A stretch of 6,067 nucleotides of DNA, taken from NCBI GenBank assembly GCA_023418535.1, contig JAEZZN010000094.1, positions 1 to 6,067 on the forward strand, written 5' to 3'. Source of the DNA: Bacillota bacterium. GTDB taxonomy: Bacteria > Bacillota_A > Clostridia > Tissierellales > Peptoniphilaceae. How positions within the stretch are numbered: position 1 is the stretch's first letter; each line of letters opens with the position of its first letter. The notes beneath the pieces were generated by a model, which was given only the letters and a program-made list of their open reading frames with translations, searched no databases and was not told the DNA's origin. This document shows, piece by piece, positions 42 to 6,067 of this stretch. Made by a program: the position numbers and the translations under genes.

Positions 42-144
42 CATGCTTATTTTTATTCAGTTTTTATCAATATCATTCCTTATATTTTCTTTGTTTCACC
101 TCTTGACTTTTAATAGTTAGTCTTTCAATCATGATATGTTGATA

Positions 145-558
145 TTATTCTTCTTCAATCTTATATTTCTTTGGTGTATATTTCTTATTTTCAATTTTTG
201 CCATGTAAAAAGCTTCTTGCACAGCATTTAATATTGTTTCTTTATCTTCTTCTGGCAATTCTCCACCAGCCATTAGACCAATCATGCCGTTAACTATTTC
301 CTCAGCATCTTTTGATCCCTTATAACCAAATTCTTTTCTAGCATTTAGTAAAAAATTAGTTTCTTGTGAGAAAAGATAGTCAGTATCAACTTCTAGAGCA
401 TTTGCGAGTTTCTCATAATATTTTCCAGAACGAGGGATTGTTTCACCTAGCTCATATCTTGAAATAGATTTTATGGAGATACCAGACTTTTTAGATAGGT
501 CTTCCTGGGTTAAGTTCTTTTCTGTTCTTAATTTTTTTAATTTTGTGGCGAAGTTCAT
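145..558 (-). CDS. XRE-family helix-turn-helix transcriptional repressor
   Basis: This 137-residue protein is probably a DNA-binding repressor acting in the cytoplasm. Residues about 6-62 form a lambda-Cro/C1 type HTH_3 domain: the run LTQEDLSKKSGIS gives the first two helices, and ISIKSISRYELG with the following PR is the typical recognition-helix region. The C-terminal half (about 66-137) is helical and ends in the basic stretch NKKYTPKKYK followed by an acidic tail. From memory, that ending is common in Bacillota phage- and ICE-type repressors that often precede an ImmA/IrrE protease. No such protease gene starts in the 144 bases downstream. The start is supported by AGGAGG (565-570, read on the minus strand) six bases before ATG. 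The gene is divergent from the fic gene, and its promoter is surrounded by repeats, so autoregulation is likely. Whether it also controls fic is inference. Confidence 0.9.
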   Translation of the reverse strand: MNFATKLKKLRTEKNLTQEDLSKKSGISIKSISRYELGETIPRSGKYYEKLANALEVDTDYLFSQETNFLLNARKEFGYKGSKDAEEIVNGMIGLMAGGELPEEDKETILNAVQEAFYMAKIENKKYTPKKYKIEEE

Positions 559-604
559 ATTTATCCTCCTTTATAGTCACTAAAAATGAAATTTAATATT
601 GATA

Positions 605-682
605 TAAGTCGTTAAGAGACTTAATACAATATCTAAAAAGACTTTTAATGACTATATTATACTTTTAAAGTCCTATTAAGTC
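605..682. promoter_or_regulatory. Candidate operator cluster for the XRE repressor
   Basis: Five related half-sites lie in 78 bases: TAAGTC (605-610), GACTTA (618-623), GACTTT (640-645), AAAGTC (667-672) and TAAGTC (677-682). The first two form an inverted repeat with a 7-base gap. ACTTTTAA also occurs twice in the same orientation at 641-648 and 661-668, exactly 20 bases apart, about two helical turns. The cluster covers the spacer, the -10 box and the likely start site of the repressor's own promoter, which fits autorepression by a dimeric XRE protein. Binding itself is inferred. Confidence 0.45.
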
Positions 683-684
683 AA
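656..684 (-). promoter_or_regulatory. Promoter of the XRE repressor gene
   Basis: On the minus strand there is a -35 box TTGACT (679-684), a spacer of exactly 17 bases, and a perfect -10 box TATAAT (656-661). Transcription would start near 649 and give a leader of about 90 bases before the ATG at 558. It is one of the two best promoter matches in the window. Confidence 0.75.
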
Positions 685-696
685 TTAAAAATTTCG

Positions 697-726
697 AAAG
701 ACATATTTCTAAAGCAAAGACATATT
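697..726. repeat. 11-base direct repeat AAAGACATATT in the control region
   Basis: AAAGACATATT occurs at 697-707 and again at 716-726, offset by 19 bases. It lies upstream of both divergent promoters. The spacing suggests two binding sites on roughly the same face of the DNA, but the protein that would bind is unknown, and AT-rich DNA can produce short repeats by chance. Confidence 0.45.
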
Positions 727-754
727 AAAAATAAAGAAAAAAGTAAAAAATAAT

Positions 755-2164: not shown

Positions 2165-2204
2165 CTAGGATGAATCTTAAAATAATTCATCCTAGTTATT
2201 GTTT
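2165..2204 (+). terminator. Rho-independent terminator after fic
   Basis: A perfect 11-base stem, CTAGGATGAAT (2165-2175) with ATTCATCCTAG (2185-2195), encloses a 9-base loop and is followed by the T-rich run TTATTGTTT. It lies 112 bases past the fic stop and should separate fic from the restriction operon. The minus strand on the other side is also T-rich, so it may work in both directions. The interval 2054-2164 before it holds no convincing gene. Confidence 0.75.
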
Positions 2205-2227
2205 ACCGATAAAGTGTTAAATATGAT
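2199..2227 (+). promoter_or_regulatory. Promoter of the hsdM-rhuM-hsdS operon
   Basis: A -35-like TTGTTT (2199-2204), a 17-base spacer and a good -10 box TATGAT (2222-2227) lie just downstream of the fic terminator, whose T-tract supplies part of the -35. The predicted start is near 2234, giving a leader of roughly 38 bases. The weak -35 suggests modest activity or help from a regulator. Confidence 0.55.
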
Positions 2228-2241
2228 AACATATATCATAT
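2221..2241. promoter_or_regulatory. Palindrome over the -10 box of the hsd promoter
   Basis: Arms ATATGATA (2221-2228) and TATCATAT (2234-2241) are perfect complements around a 5-base centre. The palindrome covers the -10 box and the expected transcription start, the usual place for a repressor operator. It is AT-rich, so chance is possible. No binding protein can be assigned, though the neighbouring XRE protein and the winged helix of Fic are candidates. Confidence 0.45.
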
Positions 2242-2271
2242 AGATTAAAACTTAAAAATGAGGTATTTAAA

Positions 2272-3852
2272 ATGTCAAATTCTCCAAATAAAAACAATGA
2301 AAGAACTCAAAGAGCAGAGCTTCACAGAAAAATATGGGCTATTGCAGATGATGTAAGAGGTGCAGTAGACGGCTGGGATTTTAAGCAGTATATATTAGGT
2401 ATACTTTTTTATAGATTCATCTCTGAAAATATCACAGAATTTTTTAATAAAGCAGAGAATGAAGCTGGTAATGAAGATTTTAATTACGCAGATATTACAG
2501 ATGAATTGGCAGAAGAATATTTTAGAGAAAATACAGTAGAAGACAAAGGTTTCTTTATATTGCCAAGTCAACTATTTCAAAATGTAGTTAAAAATGCACA
2601 TGAAAATGAAAATTTAAATACAGATTTAGCAAATATATTTAAAGAAATTGAGGGTAGTGCTATAGGTCATAGATCTGAAAATGATATAAAAGGTTTATTT
2701 GAAGATATTGACACAACAAGTAATAGACTTGGCGGAACAGTTAAAGAGAAAAATAAGAGATTAGCAGATATATTAAAAGGAATAGCAAGTATTAATTTCT
2801 CAAGTTTTGAAGATAATGAGATAGATGCCTTTGGTGATGCATACGAATATTTAATTTCAAATTATGCAAGTAATGCTGGGAAGTCAGGTGGGGAGTTTTT
2901 CACGCCTCAAACAGTGTCAAAATTACTTGCTAGAATAGTTATGGATGGTCAAAAGACTGTAAACAAGGTATATGATCCTACTTGCGGAAGTGGAAGTTTA
3001 TTGCTTCAAATGAAGAAGCACTTTGATGAACACATAATCGAAGAAGGATTTTTTGGTCAAGAAATAAATATGACAAACTTTAACCTTGCTCGTATGAATA
3101 TGTTTTTACACAATGTAAACTATGATAAGTTCTCAATAATAAGGGGGGATACTTTATTAGATCCAGGTCTTCTTGATGAAAAACCATTTGATGCAATAGT
3201 ATCTAATCCACCATATTCCGTTAAATGGATTGGTGATGGAGATCCAACCTTAATCAATGATGAAAGATTTGCGCCAGCTGGAAGATTAGCTCCCAAATCT
3301 TATGCTGACTATGCCTTTATAATGCACTCATTACATTATTTATCAAGTAAAGGAAGGGCAGCTATAGTATGCTTCCCAGGTATATTTTATAGAAGTGGTG
3401 CAGAAAAAGCTATAAGAGAATACCTTGTAGATAATAACTTCATTGACTGTGTAATTCAATTACCAGAAAATCTTTTCTTTGGTACTTCGATAGCGACATG
3501 TATATTAGTACTTGCAAAGAATAAGACAGAAAATAAAATATTATTTATAGATGCAAGTAAAGAATTTAAGAAAGAAACAAATAATAATATACTTGAAGAG
3601 AAGAATATAAACAAAATTGTTGAAGAATTTAGAAATAGAGAAGAATTAGAGCATTTTTCAAGATATGTAGGTAAAGATGAAATTGCAGAAAATGATTATA
3701 ATCTATCAGTATCAACTTATGTAGAAAAAGAAGATACAAGAGAAATAATTGACATCAAGGTATTAAATAAAGAAATAGAAGAAACAGTTAATAAGATAGA
3801 TGAGCTAAGAGCTTCTATAAATGAAATTGTGAAAGAGCTAGAAGATGAATAA
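2272..3852 (+). CDS. hsdM: Type I restriction-modification methyltransferase subunit HsdM
   Basis: HsdM transfers a methyl group from S-adenosylmethionine to N6 of adenine, working as M2S1 with HsdS and as part of R2M2S1 when HsdR is present. The 526-residue length is normal. Residues 10-170 are the helical HsdM_N domain ([16 protein letters not shown]... onward). The N6-methylase domain follows, with GEFFTP (207-212), the AdoMet-binding motif [10 protein letters not shown] (234-243), GQEIN (262-266) and the catalytic NPPY (312-315). The last 40 or so residues are charged and probably helical, the part that contacts HsdS. All key residues are present, so it should be active. A ribosome binding site TGAGGT (2259-2264) lies seven bases before the ATG. 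It is first in an operon, and its stop overlaps the rhuM start by 8 bases. A G6 run (3143-3148) in codons for Arg291-Asp293 is unusual in such AT-rich DNA. Confidence 0.97.
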
Positions 3853-4870
3853 TCAAAATATAAACTTCTTAATTTATAGATTACCAGACGAAGAAGTAAG
3901 CGTAGATATTTTAGTTAAAAATGAGAATATATGGATTAATCAAAAAGGAATGGCTGAGCTTTTTGGTATAGATAGATCTGGAATAACTAAGCATTTAAAA
4001 AATATATTTTTAGAAGGTGAATTAGATGAGAAAGTGGTATGTGCAAATTTTGCACACACCACTGAACATGGTGCAATTAAAGGGAAAACTCAAATTTCAA
4101 ATACGAAATATTATAATTTAGATGCTATAATTTCTGTAGGTTATAGAGTTAATTCTTATAAAGCTACAAAATTTAGAATGTGGGCGACATCTGTTCTAAA
4201 AGAGTATATAAAAAAGGGCTTTGTTTTAGATGATGAAAGATTGAAACAAGGTCAAGATGTATTTGGAAAAGATTATTTTAAGGAACTTCTTGAAAGAGTA
4301 CGCTCAATAAGAGCTAGCGAAAGAAGGATTTGGCAACAAATAACGGATATATTTGCAGAATGTAGCATCGACTATAACAAAAACTCTCAAATTACAAAAG
4401 ATTTTTATGCTATGGTTCAAAATAAATTTCATTATGCAATAACTGGAAAGACTGCAGCCGAAATAGTAGAAAGTTCAGCTGACCATAAAAAAACAAATAT
4501 GGGTTTAACAACTTGGAAAAATTCCCCAGATGGTAGAATCTTAAAATCAGATGTAACAGTAGCAAAAAATTACTTGAATGAAAAAGAAATAAGAAGATTA
4601 GAAAGAGCAGTAAGTGGATTTTTTGATTATGTAGAAGATTTAATAGAAGATGAAAACACCTTTACAATGGAAGATTTTGCTGAAAGTATTAATGCATTCC
4701 TAAATTTTAGGAGATATAAAATCTTAAAAGATAAAGGAAAAATTAGCAAAAAAACAGCTGATGAAAAGGCAAAATTAGAATATGATAAATTTAATAAAAT
4801 ACAAAAAATAGTTTCTGATTTTGATAAGGGAATTTTGAAAGGTTCATTTATGGAGGAAGACGATGAGTAA
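3845..4870 (+). CDS. rhuM: RhuM family protein within the type I operon
   Basis: This 341-residue protein matches the RhuM (virulence_RhuM) family, named after a Salmonella SPI-3 gene and often found inside type I restriction operons. Its biochemical role is not established. The family features are present: an N-terminal putative DNA-binding region ([25 protein letters not shown], about 29-53, HTH-like), the conserved block [12 protein letters not shown] (65-76), the signature [14 protein letters not shown] (91-104), then [21 protein letters not shown] (157-177) and a C-terminal part with [12 protein letters not shown] (196-207) and [14 protein letters not shown] (235-248). The ATG overlaps the end of hsdM by 8 bases and has only a weak site, AAAGAG (3832-3837), so translation is probably coupled to hsdM. 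Its own end overlaps hsdS by 8 bases. It appears complete. A strong inverted repeat (4033-4063) lies within codons 63-73. Possible roles, such as a regulator or accessory of the modification complex, are inference. Confidence 0.92.
4033..4063 (+). repeat. Strong 31-base inverted repeat inside rhuM
   Basis: Bases 4033-4045 pair with 4051-4063 with a single A-C mismatch (4039/4057), leaving a 5-base AATTT-type loop. The arms start AGTGGT and end ACCACT, with GTGCAA facing TTGCAC nearer the loop. In mRNA this would be a stable hairpin within codons 63-73. No T-run follows, so it is not a standard terminator. The encoded block is conserved in the family, so codon constraint may contribute. Confidence 0.7.
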
Positions 4871-6067
4871 AGTAGATGAGCTATTATATGGTGAAAAAGT
4901 TGAGTGGAAGAAAATTGGAGAGATTGCAAAAATACAAAGAGGAAGAGTGATTTCAAAAAAGTATATCCAAGATAATGCAGGGATTTATCCTGTATACTCA
5001 TCTCAAACAAAAAATGAAGGTGAAATAGGAAAGATTAATACTTATGATTTTGACGGAGAATATGTGACATGGACTACTGATGGAGCATATGCAGGAACGG
5101 TATTTTATAGAAATGGTAAATTTTCAATCACAAATATTTGTGGATTAATTGACCCTATTGATAAAACTAAAGTTTTACATAAATTTATAGCTTATTGGTT
5201 ACAAATTGAATCTGAAAAACATGTAAAAGGTGGTTCTGGAAATCCTAAATTAATGAGTAATGTTATGGCCAACATTACTATCCCAATTCCACCCCTAAAA
5301 ACGCAAGAAAAAATTGTAAAAACACTTGACAAATTAACAAATTATGTTTCAGAATTACAGGCAGAATTACAGGCTAGAGGTAAGCAATACGAGTACTACA
5401 GGGACGAGTTATTGAGTGAAGAAAATTTGAAGGTGATGTCTGAGAGAATTTTCATTAAAAATAATTTAGAGTTAAAAAGTTATAAAATACAAGATTTATG
5501 CATAAGACAAAAAGGAATAAACATTACAGCAAAAACTATGAAAGAGCTTGATAATAAAAATTCTTCAGTAAAAGTTTTTGCTGGTGGACAGACTACTGCG
5601 AGGTTAGAAGTTAAAGATGTTGGAGAAGAAAATGTTATATATAATCCGAGTGTAATTGTAAAATCAAGAGGTAATATAGATTTTGAATATTGCGATGAAC
5701 CATTTACGCATAAAAACGAATTATGGTCATATTCAACAAACGATGAAAGCATAAATATTAAGTTTTTATATTACACATTAAAAAGCAATTTACAATATTT
5801 TAGAGATAGAGCTATATCAGGTAAATTACCACAAATATCAACAGGTGTTACTGATAATTATAAAATACTATTACCATCAATAAGCATACAAAACAAAATA
5901 GTACAAATATTAGATAATTTCCAAAATTTAGTATCTCAAACACAAGGTCTTCTACCAGAAGAAATAGAACAAAGACAAAAACAATACGAATATTATCGTG
6001 AAAAACTGTTGACATTTGATTTAGATAGCGACACAATCACTAGACAGACAGACAGACAGACAGACAG
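4863..6067 (+). CDS. hsdS: Type I restriction-modification specificity subunit HsdS, 3' end beyond the window
   Basis: HsdS recognises the bipartite DNA target of the HsdM/HsdR complex. The frame opens at ATG 4863, five bases after GGAGGA (4852-4857), overlaps rhuM by 8 bases, and stays open for 401 codons to the window edge. TRD1 spans about residues 14-150 (starts VEWKKIGEIAKIQRG; contains YVTWTTDGAYAGTVFYRNG, followed by SGNPKLMSNVMANITIPIPP). The central conserved region has ELQAELQARGKQYEYYRDELL (split here as ELQAELQA, 164-171, and RGKQYEYYRDELL, 172-184). TRD2 is about 200-350 (IQDLCIRQKG, VKVFAGGQTTA, NPSVIVKSRG). The distal conserved region LPEEIEQRQKQYEYYREKLL (364-383) echoes the central one, as expected for HsdS. 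Family members usually end soon after LLTF; here the frame continues through LDSDTIT into a repeated RQTD tract coded by an AGAC repeat. The true end and any downstream fusion cannot be seen. Confidence 0.95.
   Translation, partial: MSKVDELLYGEKVEWKKIGEIAKIQRGRVISKKYIQDNAGIYPVYSSQTKNEGEIGKINTYDFDGEYVTWTTDGAYAGTVFYRNGKFSITNICGLIDPIDKTKVLHKFIAYWLQIESEKHVKGGSGNPKLMSNVMANITIPIPPLKTQEKIVKTLDKLTNYVSELQAELQARGKQYEYYRDELLSEENLKVMSERIFIKNNLELKSYKIQDLCIRQKGINITAKTMKELDNKNSSVKVFAGGQTTARLEVKDVGEENVIYNPSVIVKSRGNIDFEYCDEPFTHKNELWSYSTNDESINIKFLYYTLKSNLQYFRDRAISGKLPQISTGVTDNYKILLPSISIQNKIVQILDNFQNLVSQTQGLLPEEIEQRQKQYEYYREKLLTFDLDSDTITRQTDRQTD
5256..5279 (+). repeat. Perfect short inverted repeat in hsdS near the end of TRD1
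   Basis: Arms AGTAATGTT (5256-5264) and AACATTACT (5271-5279) are perfect 9-base complements around ATGGCC. The site lies at residues about 132-139, where the first recognition domain passes into the central conserved region. It may be a local mRNA hairpin. A role in recombination between hsdS copies would need a second copy, which is not in the window. Confidence 0.5.
5352..5375 (+). repeat. Two 12-base units coding (Glu-Leu-Gln-Ala)x2 in the HsdS central spacer
   Basis: GAATTACAGGCA (5352-5363) is followed directly by GAATTACAGGCT (5364-5375), differing only in the last base, and codes for ELQA twice (residues 164-171). The position corresponds to the TAEL repeats of EcoR124I-type HsdS. 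There, two or three 12-base units set the distance between the two recognition domains and so the length of the non-specific spacer in the DNA target. The copy number here is two. Change in copy number by slippage or unequal crossing-over keeps the frame. Confidence 0.85.
6042..6067 (+). repeat. Tetranucleotide simple sequence repeat (AGAC)n at the 3' end of hsdS, running off the window
   Basis: Six and a half copies of AGAC fill 6042-6067 with no interruption up to the last base, so the true copy number is unknown. The tract begins at codon 394 of hsdS. As 4 is not a multiple of 3, each unit gained or lost shifts the downstream frame. The repeat itself has no stop in any plus-strand frame and reads Arg-Gln-Thr-Asp in a cycle in all three. 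Tracts of this kind are classic phase-variation elements, for example GACA repeats in Haemophilus lgtC. Confidence 0.95.

Follow-up and report, generated by a model that had tools for sequence, protein, structure and literature searches.

A putative repeat-controlled third recognition domain in type I specificity genes

INTRODUCTION

What can a frame-breaking repeat achieve in a type I specificity gene when both recognition domains (TRDs) have already been encoded upstream of it? The question is raised by the window, by which we mean the whole 6,067-nt stretch analysed here (contig JAEZZN010000094.1 of a Bacillota bacterium), whose sequence stops inside an AGAC tract in hsdS. Known SSR phasevarions turn a methyltransferase on and off or swap its specificity, and an SSR survey of type I systems was reportedly published by Atack et al. 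(FASEB J, 2020). In the accessible parts of the open literature searched, a scope outside which the main SSR survey lies, we found no description of a repeat-controlled third TRD. SSRs are stated to occur in 7.9% of hsdS genes in the available text of PMC7394358, so that SSRs in hsdS as such are already known, and this figure may include genes of the kind described below.

RESULTS

An in-frame AGAC tract follows two complete TRDs

The hsdS gene of the window (4863..6065, forward strand) encodes two complete TRDs and the beginning of a repeat-coded linker, (RQTD)n, and matches PF01420 in two stretches. The TRD1 half lies at 4896..5369 on the forward strand (Pfam Methylase_S residues 12-169), and TRD2 with the second conserved region at 5470..6025 on the same strand, with approximate limits set by eye; the QYEYYREKLLTF motif closes this second conserved region directly 5′ of the AGAC tract. 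Both Methylase_S stretches precede AGAC, as the original prediction had stated for the two recognition domains, and its reading of at least 6.5 AGAC units in frame was borne out by Tandem Repeats Finder (6.5 copies, 100% matches) and by the hsdS frame, which is open from 4863 across the tract as far as the window end. The tract, a predicted TRD2/TRD3 switch point, lies at 6042..6067 on the forward strand and runs off the window, and its 6.5 units are a minimum, as the sequence breaks off before the repeat does. A 22-base pattern matched in two registers within the tract and nowhere else in the window, and its largest count across 200 dinucleotide shuffles was 0. The unit, four nucleotides, is not divisible by three.

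A second repeat in the same gene keeps the frame: the 12-nt unit CAGAATTACAGG is present in 2.1 copies at 5350..5374 (forward strand), encodes ELQA ELQA and lies in the TRD1-TRD2 connector. Across 231 proteins the copy number of ELQx ranged from 0 to 3.

Upstream on the forward strand lie hsdM, the N6-adenine methyltransferase subunit (2272..3852; PF02384, PF12161, TIGR00497), and, within the operon between hsdM and hsdS, a rhuM-family gene (3845..4870; PF13310). hsdR was found only in the relative L051 (TIGR00348), from Helcococcus massiliensis, where a rhuM-family gene (2980-4005) also separates hsdM from hsdS; the operon of another relative, L003, has no rhuM-family gene, and hsdM overlaps hsdS there. 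The window hsd operon is preceded by a Fic-domain protein gene (887-2053) and a divergent helix-turn-helix regulator gene (145-558), matches to which, at 90-93%, sit at other distances in Helcococcus-genus genomes. Among three such genomes compared, G062 matches window positions 122-730 and 773-2065 at 92-93%, and G001, the genome of L051, matches 782-2200 at 90%. Together with the close match to L051 described below, this makes a Helcococcus the most likely source of the window. An origin of the window from a mobile element or phage was considered and rejected: there was no near phage match, in plasmids only hsdM matched, at 71-73% in six records, and parts of the window match Helcococcus-genus genomes at 90-95%. 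Relatives of HsdS were found at 61 loci in viral contigs, with a best identity of 58%.

A close relative continues into a complete third TRD

Between L051 and the window, nucleotide identity is 95.1% over window positions 2193-4927 (hsdM-rhuM) and 93% over 5860-6067, and the LLTFDLDSDTIT prefix is common to both. In L051 the tract is (AGAC)9.25, with a stop directly after it in the hsdS frame. After the tract follows a 215-codon frame, different from that of hsdS, which matches PF01420 (E 5e-28); it encodes an entire Methylase_S domain with a QYEYYRDKLLDF motif of its own at the end, and hsdR comes next. Since this TRD3 frame and hsdR follow the tract, we read the natural gene as a three-TRD hsdS in its out-of-frame state. 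The original prediction had placed the tract at the hsdS 3′ end, and this does not hold in relatives: L051 and others have a further, complete TRD after it, which comes with a conserved region of its own. The switch is therefore best described as one between a two-TRD and a three-TRD subunit.

TRD1 and TRD2 are different sequences in the window and in L051, whereas hsdM, rhuM, the tract region and parts of the conserved helices are common to both, and protein P0012 combines the TRD2 and RQTD tail of the window with another TRD1. TRD3 of L051 is distinct in sequence from its own TRD2, unlike in JHP1422, where the two are identical, and it is 75% identical to TRD1 of P0020. A direct repeat of 69 nt (83% identical) lies at the ends of TRD2 and TRD3 in L051.

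An inverting hsdS was also considered and is not favoured, as L051 has neither a second hsdS nor a long inverted repeat in 1400-9798. With a minimum length of 24 nt, no inverted repeat was found in window positions 2200-6067, and a single AT-rich palindrome was the only one in L051 1400-9798.

A repeat marks the same junction in nearly all three-TRD loci

A profile built from 19 three-TRD proteins was run on genome contigs, with QYxYYRxxLL-like and EWKKLGE-like stretches, and not the tract itself, as scan patterns, and the best 80 of 560 relatives were retained. On whole genomes this profile, two-TRD genes included, had matches in 25 of 130 genomes of the Helcococcus family and in 13 of 348 drawn from the Lachnoanaerobaculum family; a 45-protein profile, again with two-TRD genes included, had matches in 1 of 28 genomes of the Veillonella family and, for the class to which Eggerthia belongs, in 22 of 395 drawn. 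An earlier set of 35 loci was chosen by hand; for the present set a script with a fixed rule reduced 162 loci to 44 candidate three-TRD rows, of which five were dropped, namely L037, L047 and L088 (read as TRD1-TRD2 pairs with no third TRD), L062 (a poly-G gene of another build) and L157 (many stops). The remaining 39 rows and L095, which fell under the length cut of the script, make up 40 three-TRD loci. These are not independent, given their relatedness and the use of three-TRD protein profiles to find them.

An SSR was present at the junction in 38 of the 40, its start lying 35-107 nt from where the second conserved motif begins. Unit lengths were 2 nt at nine loci (AG at six, AC at three), 4 nt at 23 (AGAC kind 17, AGCA kind 3, ACGC kind 2, CGAA 1), 5 nt at two and 7 nt at four; there were 11 unit sequences when rotations were counted once, and none of the 38 units was divisible by three. 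Tract lengths ran from 12 to 111 nt, the two shortest (12-13 nt) being those of L016 and L063. The two loci without a tract are L095, which has none and is in frame, and L099, which has a worn remnant and is out of frame.

In 20 of the 40 loci the third TRD is in one frame with the first two (ON; in L003, for instance, PF01420 matches in three stretches), and in the other 20, L051 among them, it is out of frame (OFF); the window ends before the TRD3 position. Because the searches favoured full-length matches, we make no claim that the ON share exceeds one third. After the tract, in the 38 loci, the TRD3 frame is open for 184-227 codons, and the other two frames stop within 8.

As a control, 672,456 bases (loci L001-L080) were screened by the same rule, and 91 SSRs were found outside junctions, 44 of them with 12-nt units, which is the unit size of the ELQA repeat. 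Only four outside the 20 junctions combined a unit of 2, 4, 5 or 7 nt with a length of at least 17 nt, and three of these (L035, L069, L070) represent this very junction in genes that are incomplete; each of the 20 three-TRD loci picked by hand within L001-L080 carries a junction SSR. At the ends of two-TRD genes an SSR was present in 4 of 85 rows, a rough contrast since internal and repeated hits are mixed in, and the four are L046 (8-nt unit, after the stop) and L069, L119 and L130 (contig edges). That the repeat is neutral or fixed and serves no function is thus very hard to reconcile with 11 unit sequences at one place, none divisible by three, and with so few comparable SSRs elsewhere in the 672 kb, and we regard it as highly improbable.

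That the repeat itself had caused the contig to break, as was suggested for the window, agrees with the contigs of L035, which starts within this tract, and of L069, L119 and L130, which end within it. Repeat-caused breaks may account for some contigs ending at the tract.

The three-TRD layout occurs in loci from Helcococcus, Peptoniphilus, Lachnoanaerobaculum, Veillonella, Eggerthia and others. Proteins under the names Streptococcus suis and Parvimonas have it too, as does a single Saccharibacteria-labelled MAG. This last locus, L044, with its label taken as given, has a (GA)14.5 tract and is out of frame. L157, outside the counts, is from the class Bacilli and has many in-frame TGA codons; at about position 535 a (GA)7 run coding ERER lies at the same junction, and its host is perhaps a mollicute with another genetic code. 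An AAA_13 ATPase gene (5861-6946) stands between the three-TRD hsdS and an hsdR-like gene in L006, with a similar start in L072 (5996), a position which we take to be the place of PrrC-type anticodon nucleases. At about 5972 in L067 (Lachnoanaerobaculum) the start of the next gene after TRD3 is unlike hsdR and resembles a Panacea/SocA-type protein.

Most length alleles differ by three or six units

In a protein search, relatives of the window protein came in two forms, of about 400 and about 600 residues. Among 231 proteins (the best 120 of each search), at least 10 kinds of repeat peptide were present in the linker, for example RERE, HTHT, RQTD, SKQA, THAR, NERT, VSQS, STVQY, QVKSS and HAARRTP. 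We collected pairs of long proteins that were at least 96% identical, had gaps and had unlike linkers (n = 44, many pairs sharing members). In 31 of the 44 the linkers differed by three or six units of 2, 4, 5 or 7 nt, with unit sizes inferred from the peptide and not read from DNA, which corresponds to steps of 2 residues in 1 pair, 4 in 18, 5 or 10 in 10 and 7 in 2; the remaining pairs had a linker substitution only (10 of 44) or a one-residue difference (3 of 44). Steps of three units are expected in such a set, because only in-frame alleles appear as long proteins.

Both frame states of otherwise identical genes were found in relatives only, in three protein pairs of a short and a long member (P0004/P0001, P0086/P0014 and P0111/P0026), which are 99-100% identical over 384-402 residues and in which the short member ends just past the tract. 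All of this length variation is across database alleles, many of them metagenomic, at the protein level, and not within one clone. The slipped-strand phase variation of the original prediction thus gains support from relatives, namely from length alleles, ON/OFF pairs and frame-breaking unit sizes, and so does its expectation that switching would alter a fusion to the next frame and leave recognition in place.

These alleles also bear on the possibility that TRD3 is an unexpressed donor whose sequence is recombined into the TRD1 or TRD2 position, with the tract only as a by-product or as a recombination handle. TRDs are indeed common to different positions (see the core comparison below), TRD1 and TRD2 of the window and L051 differ though hsdM and rhuM are 95% identical, and L051 has the direct repeat at the ends of TRD2 and TRD3. 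However, a recombination handle needs no frame-breaking units, and both the in-frame fusion in half of the loci and the three- or six-unit steps speak against a store of cassettes, which we therefore consider an unlikely explanation of the tract.

TRD3 is intact in both frame states

TRD3 was intact in the ON and OFF groups alike. That it is a genuine TRD is supported by a comparison of cores, in which 126 of 206 from TRD3 had a counterpart of at least 40% identity among the TRD1 or TRD2 cores of other proteins. For a stretch comprising TRD3 and part of its conserved helix, dN/dS was 0.06-0.18 in the 28 of 39 pairs for which it was computable, OFF-OFF pairs included, with many dS values above 1 and 11 pairs saturated; in the OFF-OFF pair L108/L134 it was 0.063 at a dS of 0.39. 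These low values could partly reflect the past of TRD3 in the TRD1 or TRD2 position.

Out of frame, TRD3 might be translated separately as a half-subunit, giving mixed S pairs. Half S subunits can function as dimers, according to the accessible text of PMC3874165 and PMC3936762, and Staphylococcus xylosus is described in part of PMC12429846 as needing both a full-length and a truncated HsdS. Moreover, a start codon (ATG, GTG or TTG) lies in the TRD3 frame within 45 nt after the tract in 16 of the 35 hand-picked loci. Against this, the post-tract starts of the 35 loci have no common position and are mostly GTG or TTG, and in the other 19 the first start comes 48-287 nt after the tract (276 in L051), so separate translation seems to us quite improbable. 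The scattered starts and the low dN/dS, taken together, suggest instead that out-of-frame TRD3 is probably silent in most loci and owes its maintenance to intermittent expression.

The ON protein of L003 was modelled with AlphaFold (mean pLDDT 72.6, pTM 0.61), and linker residues 418-428 scored under 50; the model is too poor to tell how the TRDs pair. Fold searches with it returned HsdS chains again, at a whole-chain rmsd of at least 20, and TRD-bearing methyltransferases that match the second TRD alone. By sequence, the solved HsdS nearest to this ON protein is 7bst, of the EcoR124I/EcoR124II system. The tract was 12 to 103 nt long in the 19 ON loci of the fixed-rule set, and the joint to TRD3 must therefore tolerate many lengths.

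This spread, unusual for a precisely spaced assembly, together with the two TRDs that type I S subunits normally have, would suit an activity switch, in which the three-TRD fusion cannot assemble with HsdM and methylation is on with two TRDs and off with three. An extension of no use would need no intact and varied TRD, however, and the low dN/dS of TRD3 argues against it, as does the activity of the three-TRD JHP1422 protein of H. pylori, as given in the accessible part of PMC3936762. We hold an activity switch to be improbable, on a par with the donor explanation.

DISCUSSION

The reading that we prefer, and consider probable from the sequences compared, is that the AGAC tract acts as a slipped-strand frame switch where TRD2 meets TRD3 in a type I specificity gene with three TRDs. 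In two of the three frames (OFF), a stop within a few codons would leave a normal two-TRD HsdS, and methylation would continue with the specificity of TRD1+TRD2. In the third frame (ON), the repeat would be translated as a linker, and the third TRD with its own conserved helix would be joined. ON cells would then gain or exchange methylation sites (TRD2+TRD3 and/or TRD1+TRD3), a change that is expected since HsdM and HsdR work with any S subunit available to them.

For the window itself, we infer from L051 and other relatives that its gene continues into a TRD3 of its own, and the alleles of relatives suggest that the tract slips in living cells, those of its host included. By the same comparisons the three-TRD protein is presumably produced, and published systems suggest by analogy that specificity and methylation would change between the two states; the ON form could also be inactive.

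If the frame switch is true, a working enzyme would be present in every frame and a third recognition domain would be added in one of three, which would offer these bacteria more varied methylomes and restriction at little cost. Two repeat-length variants of one strain are then predicted to differ by whole methylation motifs. Switching between two and three TRDs may also explain the HsdS forms of about 400 and 600 residues. More tentatively, and with slightly less than even confidence, we propose a widespread type I class with a spare third TRD that is shut off by a frame-breaking repeat; repeats of differing unit would have originated over and over at this one position. Cells would flip reversibly between a single-specificity two-TRD state and a multi-specificity three-TRD state, TRD3 working with TRD1 and/or TRD2, so that a slip would add a genome-wide methylation pattern and keep the old one.

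Several known systems resemble this arrangement in part, and the comparisons below rest on the accessible text of the papers cited. In EcoR124I/II the TAEL repeat (12 bp) sets the spacing of the half-sites, and the ELQA repeat of the window resembles it in being 12 nt long, in frame and located between TRD1 and TRD2; the EcoR124 repeat keeps the frame and alters spacing only, whereas the AGAC tract breaks the frame and would add a domain (PMC3874165). Inverting hsdS systems, as in S. pneumoniae and S. suis, likewise change type I specificity at random in a population, but their switching relies on inverted repeats and on a further copy of hsdS (PMC7394358, PMC6265453), neither of which was seen in L051 1400-9798.

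Three-TRD HsdS proteins are mentioned as already reported in PMC12429846, as a hint of non-canonical assemblies, and other three-TRD genes are described as arising by recombination (PMC3077401). JHP1422 of H. pylori J99 likewise carries three TRDs in a single S protein, all of them flanked by conserved sequence (PMC3936762, PMC3077401); it methylates two motifs, and constructs with TRD1+TRD3 and with TRD2+TRD3 are active (PMC3936762). Its third TRD duplicates the second, and the accessible text of both papers describes no repeat-controlled junction, whereas the loci studied here have unlike TRDs, and the reading frame decides whether the third is attached.

A close parallel is NgoAV of Neisseria gonorrhoeae, where slipping of a poly-G tract in hsdS fuses a further part and changes specificity (PMC9577141). 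In hsdS1/hsdS2 of NgoAV, as is proposed here, a slipping tract decides the fusion of a following TRD and thus whether the S protein is truncated or fused, a 208-residue S becoming full-length S by the G tract (PMC9577141). The window has no poly-G tract joining hsdS halves; its repeat consists of AGAC units and comes after TRD2. G tracts of 9-12 after conserved hsdS motifs were noticed, mostly at the TRD1-TRD2 place, in L062 (4571, 5146, 5688), L102 and L076, from a Flavobacteriaceae MAG, a Helcococcus-family genome and a Prevotella MAG, and the layout of these three loci is closer to NgoAV. The three-TRD loci differ from NgoAV in that two TRDs would become three, that the units are of 2, 4, 5 or 7 nt and that the OFF form is a full canonical HsdS. 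Our best reading of the arrangement is therefore that of the NgoAV principle moved one domain along.
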